Assembly: GCA_035651655.1 (NCBI GenBank)
Contig: DASRFG010000002.1
Location: 124,001 to 188,000, forward strand
Origin: Terriglobales bacterium
Lineage (GTDB): Bacteria; Acidobacteriota; Terriglobia; Terriglobales; Acidobacteriaceae
DNA: 64,000 bases
Direction of reading: 5' to 3'
The position numbers were made by a program, and so were the translations under genes. Shown here one piece after another: positions 29,141 to 33,646 of this stretch (positions within the stretch are counted from its first letter, which is position 1; every line of letters starts with the position of its first letter). The notes beneath the pieces are model-generated. The model was not told the origin of the DNA. It was given only the letters and a program-made list of their open reading frames with translations, and made no database searches.

Positions 29141-30316
29141 TTGAGATTAAATCTGCCCTGCATCTGCCTGGTTGCCTGCATCCTGTGCTGCCAATGTGCT
29201 TTCGCCGAAACCAAGCCCCGGGCACGCGACTTGGGCGTGCCATTCGAGGGCACAGCGGGGCCGCTGAATGCCATCACGGACGTACAAGGGGTTGAGGTAG
29301 GGCATACGACCCTTATTTCAGGCGAAGGCCCCCTAAAAGTTGGCGTCGGTCCGGTACGCACAGGAGTAACGGCTGTGCTGCCGCGCGGCACGACCAACAG
29401 CGATCCCGTATTCGCCGCCTGGTTCACCGAGAACGGCAATGGCGAGATGACGGGCACGACCTGGGTGGAAGAATCGGGATTCCTCGAGGGCCCGGTCATG
29501 ATCACCAATACCCACAGCGTGGGGGTGGTCCGAGATGCCGTGATTCAGTGGCGGGTGAAGCATGGGCAGCCTAAGGAAAGCGAGTACTGGTGGTCGCTTC
29601 CGGTAGTGGCGGAAACCTGGGACGGCTACCTGAATGACACCAACGGTTTCCACGTGCGTCCAGAAGACGCATTTCATGCTTTGGAGACCGCGCGCGGCGG
29701 TCCCGTTCCCGAAGGCAATGTTGGTGGCGGTACCGGCATGATCTGCTACGAATTTAAAGGCGGCATAGGAACGGCCTCGCGAAAGCTCACGGAAAAGCAG
29801 GGCGGCTACACCGTGGGCGTGCTGGTGCAGTGCAACCATGGCCGGCGCGGGCAGTTGCGGATCGCAGGCGTCCCCGTGGGCAGCGAGATTACGGACTATC
29901 CCGTCTGGTCACAAATGGGGATGGCGAGGCCGAGGGACGTTGGCTCGATCATTGTTGTGGTCGCGACTGACGCGCCGCTCCTGCCGCACCAACTTAAGCG
30001 CATCGCCAGGCGCGTCACCCTCGGCCTGGGCCGCAATGGCGCCACCGCGGGAAACGGGTCAGGCGACATTTTTATTGCTTTCTCCACCGCGAATCCGGGC
30101 GCATTCAGCTACAAGCACGTAACCCATCCGGCGATGATGGCCAACGATCAGTTGGATCCGCTATTTGATGCGACCGTTCAGGCTGTTGAAGAAGCTGAGG
30201 TAAACGCCCTGGTTGCGGCTGAAACCATGGTTGGAGCGGACAACCATAAGGCGACGGCAATTCCGCACGATCGTCTGCGCGAAATTTTAAAGAAGTATAA
30301 CCGTCTGGGCAGATAA
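29141..30316 (+). CDS. P1-family peptidase (DmpA/BapA-like aminopeptidase), exported
   Basis: About 391 residues from the TTG at 29141, preferred because AGGAGAGAGAG precedes it and a signal peptide follows (LPCICLVACILCCQCAFAE); the frame is open to 29081. The fold is that of Ntn-like P1 hydrolases, which self-cleave before a nucleophilic Ser. The cleavage motif is seen as AGNGSGDIFIAFSTAN, with Asn-Gly-Ser-Gly-Asp. Other marks: ITDVQGVEVGHTTL, TGVTAVLPRGTT, MITNTHSVGVV and EGNVGGGTGMICYEFKGGIG. Relatives cleave N-terminal D- or beta-amino acids from peptides. Probably periplasmic. Confidence 0.9.
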   Translation: MRLNLPCICLVACILCCQCAFAETKPRARDLGVPFEGTAGPLNAITDVQGVEVGHTTLISGEGPLKVGVGPVRTGVTAVLPRGTTNSDPVFAAWFTENGNGEMTGTTWVEESGFLEGPVMITNTHSVGVVRDAVIQWRVKHGQPKESEYWWSLPVVAETWDGYLNDTNGFHVRPEDAFHALETARGGPVPEGNVGGGTGMICYEFKGGIGTASRKLTEKQGGYTVGVLVQCNHGRRGQLRIAGVPVGSEITDYPVWSQMGMARPRDVGSIIVVVATDAPLLPHQLKRIARRVTLGLGRNGATAGNGSGDIFIAFSTANPGAFSYKHVTHPAMMANDQLDPLFDATVQAVEEAEVNALVAAETMVGADNHKATAIPHDRLREILKKYNRLGR

Positions 30317-30339
30317 GATTGCTTGCCCCGGTTTCGGTT

Positions 30340-30359
30340 CACACGGCTAAAGCCGTGTG
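30340..30359. repeat. REP-like palindrome at the left edge of the repeat island
   Basis: CACACGGCT-AA-AGCCGTGTG is a perfect palindrome with 9-bp arms, 23 bases after the stop of the peptidase gene. The island contains related palindromes at 30734-30753 (CGCACGGCT-TT-AGCCGTGCG), 30774-30785, 31229-31244, 31262-31281, 31765-31780, 31798-31817, 32100-32119 and 32139-32150. They come in head-to-head pairs flanking the RAYT gene, as REP/BIME elements do. Confidence 0.8.
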
Positions 30360-30390
30360 CTTCCACGGTCAGCCACCCGAGGGTTAGGAA

Positions 30391-30514
30391 AGGGAAGACC
30401 TCAGGGAAGACGTCAGGAAAAGTCGTCAGGGAAGACGTCAAGAAAGCCGTCAGGCAAGGCAGGGAAGACGTCAGGAAAGACCTCAGGAAAGACGTCAGGA
30501 AAGCCGTCAGGCAG
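30391..30514. repeat. Degenerate 12-bp tandem repeat (GTCAGGAAAGAC type)
   Basis: About ten imperfect copies of a 12-base unit close to GTCAGGAAAGAC, several containing the palindrome GACGTC. Frames through it give only low-complexity Lys/Arg-rich peptide and no start signal was seen, so it is taken as non-coding. It fills much of the gene-free stretch 30317-30771. Confidence 0.8.
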
Positions 30515-30565
30515 CCGTGCTTCCACCCTGGTTCAAAACGTTTCTCCACATTTCCCAATTGAAAC

Positions 30566-30795
30566 CTCAGATTGGCAGAAGAGAACGACCCATTTTGGAA
30601 CGACCCAATTGCGTGATCACGGCCGGTCACTGCTCGCCCCGGGGTCCCTGCCTCACAATCAGAGATAGCTCCAGAGAAGTGACGCATTCGGCTGCAATGC
30701 ATCACCTACGACAGGGTTGAATAACCGTGGAAGCGCACGGCTTTAGCCGTGCGAAAAGGGGCAGAAGAGTCATGGGCTTTAGCCCCTGTGAATTC
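30566..30795 (+). repeat. Direct repeat A, left copy (230 bp)
   Basis: Nearly the same sequence recurs at 31931-32160, including CGACCCAATTGCGTGATCAC, CAGAGATAGCTCCAGAGAAG and two palindromes. The left copy includes the start of the RAYT gene. A few single-base changes and small indels separate the copies. Confidence 0.9.
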
Positions 30796-31272
30796 GACGG
30801 CAAACGAACATTCTTCGTAACTGCTGTCACATGGCAACGCATGCCATTGTTGCAAAGCGATCGAATGGCAGAGTTACTTTGCGAAACCATGTTCCGATAT
30901 CGTGAACATGGACGCTACCTTCTGCACGAATTCGTTCTGATGCCTGACCATGTCCATCTCCTGCTCACCCCCGCTCAGAGCATAGCTCTGGAACGTGCGA
31001 TGCAATTCATCAAAGGCGGTTTCTCACATGAAGCGGGGGAATTGCTGAACTCAAGAAAACCTATCTGGGAGAAGAGCTTCACAAATCATAGGATCCGTGA
31101 CCCCAACGATTGCGAGTCGCATCGCAGATATATTCACCTCAATCCGGTTCGGAAGTTGCTGTGTTCGACCGCGGAAAAGTATGCGTTCTCCTCAGCGAAT
31201 CCGAGGTTCCGATTGGATCCCGTTCCACAGGGGCTGAAGCCCCTATCTTTGGCAACTGGATCGCACGGCTGA
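30772..31272 (+). CDS. REP-associated tyrosine transposase (RAYT), Y1/IS200-like
   Basis: 166 residues from the ATG at 30772; the open frame reaches the GTG at 30727, but that lies inside a palindrome. Typical RAYT marks: RTFFVTAVTWQRMPLLQ at the start, the HUH motif PDHVHLLL near residue 60, ERAMQFIKGGFSHEAGELLN, and HRRYIHLNPVRKLLC near 125. RAYTs are single-copy, non-autonomously mobile relatives of IS200/IS605 transposases that cut and spread REP palindromes. Here the gene is directly flanked by REP-like palindromes on both sides, the diagnostic arrangement. The start ATG overlaps the stem GGGCTTTAGCCC, so the hairpin could limit translation. Confidence 0.88.
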   Translation: MGFSPCEFDGKRTFFVTAVTWQRMPLLQSDRMAELLCETMFRYREHGRYLLHEFVLMPDHVHLLLTPAQSIALERAMQFIKGGFSHEAGELLNSRKPIWEKSFTNHRIRDPNDCESHRRYIHLNPVRKLLCSTAEKYAFSSANPRFRLDPVPQGLKPLSLATGSHG

Positions 31273-31321
31273 AGCCGTGCGCTTCCACGGTAGTCCGCCA
31301 GTCGATATGAGGAAACAACGG
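31166..31321 (+). repeat. Direct repeat B, left copy (156 bp, includes RAYT 3' end)
   Basis: The last about 35 codons of the RAYT gene and the palindromes behind it recur at 31702-31857 with the same length and two mismatches noted. The copy ends within the first unit of the 62-bp array. Confidence 0.9.
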
Positions 31322-31701
31322 GAACATATTAGGAACCGGTGCGCTTCCACGTAGTCCGCCAGTCGATATGAGGAAACAACGGGAACATATTAGGAACTGG
31401 TGCGCTTCCACGGTAGTCCGCCAGTCAATATGAGGAAACAACGGGAACATATTAGGAACTGGTGCGCTTCAACGATAATCTGCCAGTCGATGTGAGGAAA
31501 CAACGAGAACATATTAGGAACCGATGCGCTTCCACGGTAGTCCCCCAGTCGATATGAGGAAACAACGGGAACATATTAGGAGCCCGTGCCCTTCCACCTT
31601 GTCCTCCAGTCGATATGAGGAAACAACGGGAACATATTAGGAACCGGTGCGCTTCAACGATAATCTGCCAGTCGATGTGAGGAAATAACGGGAACATATT
31701 A
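31283..31701. repeat. 62-bp tandem repeat array
   Basis: Seven copies of a 61-62 base unit, anchored on GGAAACAACG at 31311, 31372, 31434, 31496, 31558, 31619 and 31681 (the last reads GGAAATAACG); an eighth is in repeat B' at 31847. The unit contains GCTTCCACGGTAGTCCGCCA, CAGTCGATATGAG and GGGAACATATTAGGAAC. Units abut without spacers. Reverse-strand frames give a repeated MFPLFPHIDW peptide, but no start signal or non-repeat part supports coding. Confidence 0.92.
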
Positions 31702-31857
31702 CGACCGCGGAAAAGTATGCGTTCTCCTCAGCGAATCCGAGGTTCCGATTGGATCCCGTTCCACAGGGGCTGAAGCCCCTATCTTTGGCGACTGGATCGC
31801 ACGGCTGAAGCCGTGCGCTTCCACGGTAGTCCGCCAGTCGATGTGAGGAAACAACGG
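31702..31857 (+). repeat. Direct repeat B', right copy, with dead RAYT 3' fragment
   Basis: Second copy of 31166-31321. It carries a 3' fragment of the RAYT gene with no 5' part, followed by the palindromes at 31765-31780 and 31798-31817 and one more 62-bp-type unit. The DNA between here and repeat A' (31858-31930) holds no gene. Confidence 0.88.
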
Positions 31858-31930
31858 ACTAAATATTAGGAGCACGTGCGCTCCACGATTATCTGCAGGC
31901 GCTGGCTCCGTGGAATTGAATCCATTCAAA

Positions 31931-32160
31931 TCTCATATTGGCAGAAAAGAACGACATTTTGGAACGACCCAATTGCGTGATCACGCCCTAGTCACTGCTC
32001 GCCCCGGGGGTCCCTGCCACACAATCAGAGATAGCTCCAGAGAAGTGACGCATACGGCTGCAATGCATCACCAACGACAGTGTTGAATAACCGTGGAAGC
32101 GCACGGCTTTAGCCGTGCGAAAAGGGCAGAAAAGTCATGGGCTTTAGCCCCTGTGAATTC
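31931..32160 (+). repeat. Direct repeat A', right copy (230 bp)
   Basis: Second copy of 30566-30795. Its last bases overlap the stop codon of the MmsA-like gene (minus strand, stop at 32161-32159), so the repeat sits exactly at the 3' end of that operon. The palindrome pair 32100-32119 and 32139-32150 may act as the operon's 3' stem-loop. Confidence 0.88.
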
Positions 32161-33646
32161 AGAACTTCCGGCTGTGCTCGCGGCCCCAGCGCTCGATAAC
32201 AACTTTCTTGTCGGTGTAGAACTCAATGGCGTCACGTCCCTGGCCGTGCACGGTCCCGAAGAAGCTTTCCTTCCAGCCACTGAAGGGAAAATAGGCCATA
32301 GGGGCGGCCACACCGATGTTGATGCCGATGTTTCCCGCCGGCGCCTCATAGCGGAATTTGCGCGCCGCCGCGCCGCTGGTGGTGAAGATCGAAGCTTGAT
32401 TTCCGTACGGGCTGCTGGCCAGGAACGCGATTGCCTCATCTACGTCGTTCGCTGGAACCAGGCTGAGAACGGGGCCGAAAATTTCGGTGGCCGCGAGCTT
32501 GCTGCCGGGAGGTACTTGGTCCAGTACAGTGGGGCGCACAAAATTTCCGGATTCATATTTCGAAATTTTGGTATGGCGGCCATCCACCAGCACTTTGGCG
32601 CCTTCGCTCGCGCCTTGCCCGATCAGACTCTCAACCCGAGCTTTGCTTTCGGGCGTAATCACCGGCCCCATCTGGACATCGGGATCGAGGCCAAAGCCCA
32701 CGCGCATAGAAGAAGCAGTTTCTGCAATGGTATCGCGAAAAGTTTTCTGCGCCTGGCCCACTGCGACAGCAACTGACACCGCCAGGCAGCGTTGGCCGGC
32801 GCATCCGAATGCGCTCTCGCCGATGATCTGTGCGGCCTGCTGCATGTCGGCATCGGGCAATACGACAACGTGGTTCTTAGCTCCGCCCTGGCACTGTAGC
32901 CGTTTGCCATTTTGCGCTCCACGCGCATACAGGTATTTGGCCACTGGCGTGGAGCCGACAAAACTGACGGCGCGCACGGTAGGATGATCCAAAATTGCGT
33001 CCACCGCGGCTTTGCCGCCATTCACCAGGTTCAACACTCCGGGCGGAAGCCCGAGGGTCTCCATCAGTTGAAACGCCAACTGCATAGTAAGTGGGACGCG
33101 CTCTGAGGGTTTCAGCACAAACGTGTTGCCGCAGGCAATGGCGTAAGGCAGAAACCAGAACGGAATCATCGCCGGAAAATTGAAAGCTGTAACCGCTGCG
33201 ACTACACCCAGCGGCTGGCGGATCATCGTCTCATCAATACCGCGGGCAACGTCTTCCAGGTTGTAACCCTGCATCAGGGTGGGAATGCCGCACGCCACTT
33301 CAACGTTTTCGATGGCCCGGCGCAGCTCCGCTTTTGCCTCGGTGAGAGTTTTCCCGTTCTCGAGCGTAATCGTCCGCGCCAGATCGTCGATGTGGTCTTC
33401 GAGCAGTTGCTTCAGCTTGAACAGATACTGAATGCGCTCTTCGGGCGGAGTGCGGCGCCAGGCAGGAAACGCGGCCGCAGCGGCATCCACTACCGCTCCA
33501 ACTTCTGCGGCGCTCGACATCGGCACCTGCGCCAGCACTTCTCCAGTCGCGGGGTTCGTGACATCGCGGTGCTCGCCTGCGCCAGACTGCCATTTACCGT
33601 TGAAGTAATTGCGGACGGCGGTTTGAGTAGGAGCTGCGATGCTCAT
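32159..33646 (-). CDS. Methylmalonate/malonate-semialdehyde dehydrogenase (CoA-acylating), MmsA-like
   Basis: 495 residues from the ATG at 33646 ([20 protein letters not shown]), preceded by AGGAG; the open frame to 33859 is not used. It is an aldehyde dehydrogenase of the MmsA/IolA group that yields acetyl- or propionyl-CoA plus CO2 with NAD and CoA. Group marks are [39 protein letters not shown], the catalytic Cys in [15 protein letters not shown] near residue 285, and [19 protein letters not shown] at the end. It is the last gene of the minus-strand catabolic group, 130 bases after the GabT-like gene. In beta-alanine breakdown it would convert malonate semialdehyde; the true substrate here is inferred. 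Confidence 0.92.

Follow-up and report, generated by a model that had tools for sequence, protein, structure and literature searches.

The 64,000-nucleotide stretch of Terriglobales DNA analysed here (the window; contig DASRFG010000002.1, positions 124,001 to 188,000) holds a RAYT gene, a domesticated transposase, followed by a tandem array of 61–62-bp units, and the question raised by this locus is how such an array came to lie beside the gene and whether it has a role there.

Array structure and unit content

TRF run on the 64-kb window reported a period of 62 with 6.9 copies at 31277–31701 (score 675), and the same stretch was reported a second time with a 185-bp, three-unit period. Unit alignment resolved seven head-to-tail units of 61–62 bp each on the plus strand, starting at 31277 (U1), 31339 (U2), 31400 (U3), 31462 (U4), 31524 (U5), 31586 (U6) and 31647 (U7), of which U7 is cut at 31701 and retains 55 bp. 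BLAST of the unit against its own genome, followed by alignment, placed an eighth unit (U8, 31813–31875) and a ninth stub (U9, about 31876–31899) on the same strand beyond a second copy of the RAYT 3′ end (31813–31899 together). The first copy of that end, at 31166–31321 (plus strand), comprises the RAYT 3′ end, the downstream REP pair and the head of U1; the second, at 31702–31857 (plus strand), comprises the RAYT 3′ end, the REP pair and the head of U8, and is joined to the truncated U7. The two are identical at 154 of 156 bases (98.7%), and no clear shared bases were seen at the join between U7 and the second copy. The sequence-only reading had described an array between two RAYT 3′ ends, and both the array and its placement were confirmed. 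Its eight units were recovered, together with the partial ninth that it had overlooked; its bounds of 31283–31857 require correction, as the array begins at 31277 and stops at 31701, and position 31857 closes the duplicated segment. Elsewhere in the window, with the TRF threshold unchanged, a single further array was reported, with a 12-bp period (30391–30513), by which a chance origin was excluded.

An assembly artefact was considered most improbable. The genome is a draft of 39 contigs, and among 60 contigs of relatives 7 break off less than 1 kb from the RAYT, on its higher-coordinate side, but the longest exact repeat in 30300–32250 is 88 bp, up to 13 positions differ between units and similar arrays occur in other genomes. 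As no 91-mer is repeated, an assembly of short reads could traverse the array if k was large. Two other identities were rejected: a CRISPR array, which has short repeats and unique spacers, whereas these units repeat over their whole length, and a coding role, as units of 61–62 bp shift the reading frame. A minus-strand frame (31139–31450) overlaps the array.

Pairwise differences among U1–U7 ranged from 2 to 10. The AACGATAATCTG type was found in U4 and U7 only, with five differences common to both, and the head of the U9 stub is related to it; a one-base gap is common to U2 and U6, and a T near the unit end to U2 and U3. The variants had been read as alternating along the array; they recur instead at every third unit (U4/U7; 185-bp TRF period). 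Block duplication in addition to slippage, as suggested in the same reading, is visible in the three-unit period and in the sharing of variants, and from the three-unit recurrence it follows that both block and single-unit duplications took place. To judge from the variants, duplication of a three-unit block (U1 U2 U4 / U5 U6 U7) with single addition of U3 would fit this pattern, and the suggested recombination hot spot fits the nested duplications. A hypervariable unit head was tried and rejected: the scan for clustering of unit changes gave p 0.02–0.06 when events were listed by hand and p 0.996 when changes clustered on one branch were scored as a single event.

At the head of each unit stands GTGCGCTTCCAC, which corresponds to the outer arm and tail of the REP hairpin downstream of the RAYT. 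These first 12–15 bases, GTGCGCTTCCAC(GGT), are from the REP hairpin at 31261–31291 that closes the RAYT element; on the minus strand the unit head reads GTGG-AAG-CGCAC (tag, linker and five arm bases), and the left boundary of the array (31277) falls inside the outer arm. The unit matched the opposite REP/TIR over 15 bases, with a shuffle maximum of 12. When folded and compared with shuffles, units gave z of −0.3 to +1.4 and the REP pairs −4.7 and −3.4, and no stem of 6 or more was found in 31292–31701. The units are unable to form a hairpin and, given their arm and tail content and the lack of unit hairpin folding, are one-armed REPs plus flank. For the remaining ~46 bp, BLAST found no other good match in the 4.07-Mb genome: a single-unit search, proposed earlier as a check, returned 23 matches, of which 8 were the units themselves and the others were short, weak (E 0.06 or worse) and mostly in the REP part. 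The unique part was likewise without a match in relatives (61 genomes, in which matches lay only in the REP/TIR pair or RAYT end; all those listed for comparison were of other genera than the window's genome), and viral contigs gave 0 matches to the 26-base unit core.

A selected function, in which the array would bind a nucleoid protein, gyrase or the RAYT, or regulate the RAYT, was judged very unlikely. Bases 32–59 of the unit are nearly constant across U1–U7, which would suit such a function, but the unit is absent elsewhere in the genome and from relatives. The protein-binding array proposed from the sequence is also unsupported: no IHF consensus with up to one mismatch was found in the array, unit structure did not exceed that of shuffles, and the scores of all four Rfam matches fell far short of gathering scores. 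The analysis yielded no binding or cargo role for the array.

The RAYT gene, its REPs and the surrounding island

The gene at 30772–31272 (plus strand) was identified as a RAYT, as previously read, by its match to profile NF047646 (110 bits, cut-off 80), and it also matches Pfam Y1_Tnp. In a PDB sequence search the only match was 4er8 (TnpArep), and the HUH and tyrosine motifs are present as HVH at residue 60 and YIHLNP at 120. The frame is open from 30727; the likely start codon (30772) lies within the RAYT's own upstream hairpin/REP, which might affect RAYT translation. It is the sole full RAYT in the genome, with one weak partial match on contig C39. Nine named relatives were found, eight of them (48–59% identity) in MAGs titled Acidobacteria or Terriglobia and the ninth a weak Pseudanabaena match.

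The gene is bracketed by an inverted pair of two-hairpin REPs/TIRs, at 30724–30795 (plus strand; folding z −3.4) and 31226–31291 (minus strand; z −4.7), each with its tag, GTGG (form GT[AG]G), pointing outward. The REP pattern gave 21 matches dispersed in the genome and 0 in a reversed control, so that bracketing inverted REPs, catalytic motifs with family profile and dispersed REPs, three marks of a RAYT/REPtron, are all present. The long terminal inverted repeats, of the double-palindrome type, also give the locus the repeat structure of a TIRtron. TIRtrons are tyrosine transposase genes with an inverted repeat on either side, in some cases a double palindrome, and several are from Acidobacteria (PMC3733652, in the portion available); the locus shares this arrangement, whereas TIR dimers and groups, and no half-TIR minisatellites, are described in that portion.

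The RAYT and array are in turn bracketed by a 240-bp direct repeat, with a left copy at 30558–30795 that ends in the upstream REP pair and a right copy at 31924–32160, both on the plus strand; the REP pair ends both copies at GAATTC. The copies align with 224 matches, 11 mismatches and 5 gap columns (95.3% identical in ungapped columns), and, to judge from the 98.7% identity of the two RAYT 3′ copies, this repeat probably predates their duplication. A further REP copy marks the left end of the island (30336–30369, plus strand). The 12-bp array noted above (30391–30513, plus strand; TRF) consists of ~10 copies of AGGAAAGACGTC and lies upstream of the RAYT, flanked by the REP at 30336 and by a REP tail near 30510; among 60 genomes its motif was found in the window's genome and in one weak match elsewhere.

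Arrays at other RAYT loci and at REPs without a RAYT

RAYT loci of the same family were surveyed for comparable arrays. At least about 150 RAYT places were listed, and 100 were used, in E-value order, with a contig start above 11,000 and the window's own genome excluded; two places inside stretches already taken and the four last were left out. Arrays within 700 bp of the RAYT were counted as near, and sequence more than 2 kb away served as control, at least two control stretches (L145, L151) holding a second RAYT. In the discovery set of 60 loci, 8 near arrays of period 20 or more were found in 81.7 kb, versus 25 in 855 kb of control (p 0.003). All control arrays had periods of 39 or less and six near arrays, at six loci, had periods of 44 or more, so that at a period of 40 or more the count was 6 at 60 loci versus 0 in 855 kb, with the cut of 40 picked after the discovery set had been seen and with one array (L144, the same as L075) known before the test. 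The cut was then fixed before 40 further loci were searched. In this replication set, 7 near arrays (6 loci, 55.8 kb) were found versus 4 in 580 kb (Poisson 2e-7, binomial 1e-5, locus level 7e-5), and all four control arrays were in open frames. When only intergenic sequence, called by a crude open-frame rule, was counted at period 20, the enrichment was weaker and still present (6 in 30.8 kb versus 9 in 163.6 kb, p 0.008). In this family, RAYTs are accompanied by an excess of arrays with periods of at least 40. Long-period near arrays occur at 12 of the 100 loci, with no clear side preference (8 five-prime and 5 three-prime among the 13 such arrays); L079 and L090, which also carry arrays, are not among the 100.

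Two further observations were made at these loci. In a single-contig genome, one RAYT has long-period arrays on both sides, with units of 153 bp and 137 bp (L191, 9270–9678 and 10335–11080). The seven contigs that stop <1 kb from a RAYT include those at L115, L121, L128 and L138, and repeats beside the RAYT perhaps break assemblies there.

The enrichment bears on one candidate origin of the window's array, in which two copies of the REP tail present by chance would have undergone plain slippage and unequal exchange, with hairpin and RAYT uninvolved. The REP tail, an 11–15-bp direct repeat present in every unit, would suffice for this, but the gathering of long-period arrays beside RAYTs would be left unexplained, and this origin was considered improbable.

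REP/TIR content was examined in 15 arrays, namely the window's own, the 26-bp one at L166 and all 13 near arrays with periods of at least 40. The unit adjoining the RAYT was left out, and the array was compared with the reverse complement of the opposite flank and with 60 shuffles. The match to the opposite flank was longer than in any of the 60 shuffles for 10 of the 15 arrays; L188 tied, and L130, L191 (5′ side), L196 and L204 had no REP/TIR match above shuffles. One-armed units were seen by eye at L144, L150, L166 (26 bp) and L208, and the L196 array retains the outermost 6 bp of a 31-bp inverted repeat. In roughly half of the near arrays the hairpin is repeated in full. A hairpin was present in 9 of the 13 near arrays of period 40 or more, which proves little for long arrays since shuffles often give one (9–67% of cases).

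Ten REP places elsewhere in the window's own genome were examined, and arrays (period 20 or more, score 50 or more) were called at four RAYT-less REPs: on contig C35 near 88.7 kb and near 112.5 kb, on C3 near 29.1 kb and on C19 near 147.6 kb. The other six carried none. The 107-bp array on C3, with three copies, extends as far as the outer GTGG edge of a REP and stops there. Array formation therefore occurs without an adjacent RAYT gene, although a RAYT could act in trans on such REPs. On C19 (L061, 595–1061), a 79-bp array of ~6 copies adjoins a REP of the window's type, with two hairpins per unit, one of them unlike the window's REP; on C35 (L052, 1164–1549), 139-bp and 53-bp REP arrays are mixed, with five REP copies in one orientation.

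Origin of the array

Two studies have already described REP modules repeated in tandem next to RAYTs, together with flanking DNA and the rayt 3′ end (PMC2817692, PMC3116915). RAYT-adjacent BIMEs include four cases in which the array has taken up the rayt 3′ end along with the stretch leading to the downstream REP, and a rolling-circle origin by the RAYT was proposed for them (Nunvar et al., 2010; PMC2817692). The window agrees with these BIMEs in that a tandem array adjoins a RAYT with flanking inverted REPs, flanking DNA is part of the head-to-tail modules and the rayt 3′ end is captured, repeated with the downstream REP at 31702–31857; it differs in that the BIME modules hold whole REPs, often in alternating orientation, whereas a unit here has one arm and no complete REP hairpin. 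The tandem REPIN clusters of P. fluorescens SBW25 are similar in that tandem copies including flanking DNA lie beside RAYT genes, and different in that they consist of whole REPINs in fewer copies (at most four REPINs), with no one-armed units described in the text available (PMC3116915). No description of one-armed REP arrays was found in the literature searched (open-licence papers, no preprints).

The array may, as the sequence-only reading held possible, be a replication product of the RAYT, which would cut single-stranded DNA beside the REP and rejoin the ends or prime copying of the flank by a rolling circle, with the rayt 3′ end captured in the process. This origin is a doubtful one, although it has evidence in its favor: a rolling-circle model accounts for the enrichment of long-period arrays beside RAYTs and for rayt 3′ capture, seen here and in the four published cases (PMC2817692), and the E. 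coli RAYT cuts at CT 5′ or 3′ of a REP (PMC8266576). The rolling-circle model (PMC2817692) nevertheless expects whole REPs in the modules. Complete REPs, the expected module boundaries, are lacking in the units, and arrays are also present at REPs without an adjacent RAYT, subject to action in trans. The RAYTs studied require a hairpin, which these units do not have.

We lean, by a narrow measure, toward slippage at the REP hairpin, by which a BIME-like minisatellite would have arisen at the outer edge of the REP downstream of the RAYT. Synthesis from the flank toward the RAYT would proceed through the flank and the GTGG tail and into the hairpin arm for five bases; the hairpin would then stall it, and after a slip back of ~62 bp the flank would be copied anew, giving units of flank plus one arm without a hairpin. 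From two units on, slippage and unequal exchange would add single units and three-unit blocks. A separate rearrangement would have duplicated the RAYT 3′ end and REP and joined them to the truncated U7, so that U8 and U9 would be the remnant of the original right edge. Stalling a few bases into the arm, followed by back-slip, accounts for one-armed units and for boundaries inside hairpins. In favor of this origin are the REP arm and tail at each unit head, folding above shuffles in the REP pairs and not in the units, the three-unit period with its shared variants, the enrichment beside RAYTs, the one-armed units at four other RAYT loci and the arrays at RAYT-less REPs. Against hairpin stalling, 88 of the 100 RAYT loci are without a long-period array; against stalling in the arm, the whole hairpins of about half of the near arrays are not predicted; and against a REP-seeded origin stand L196, which keeps 6 bp only, and the 4 of 15 arrays without a REP/TIR match above shuffles. 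The absence of clear shared bases where U7 joins the second RAYT 3′ copy also counts against this account.

Unstable hairpin DNA probably gave rise to the array as a passive by-product, a minor one when considered by itself. A wider reading, put forward tentatively, is that RAYT/REP ends are birth places of minisatellites that begin within the REP/TIR hairpin and have one arm per unit, distinct from whole-REP BIMEs, and that the arm would be the repeated footprint of stalled or nicked synthesis in several genera of the family. How BIMEs and REP clusters multiply, by slippage or by RAYT catalysis, is unsettled. One-armed arrays may record the first step, with the boundary marking where synthesis or cutting stopped, and the replicated enrichment in one acidobacterial family provides a set of loci for testing array origin.
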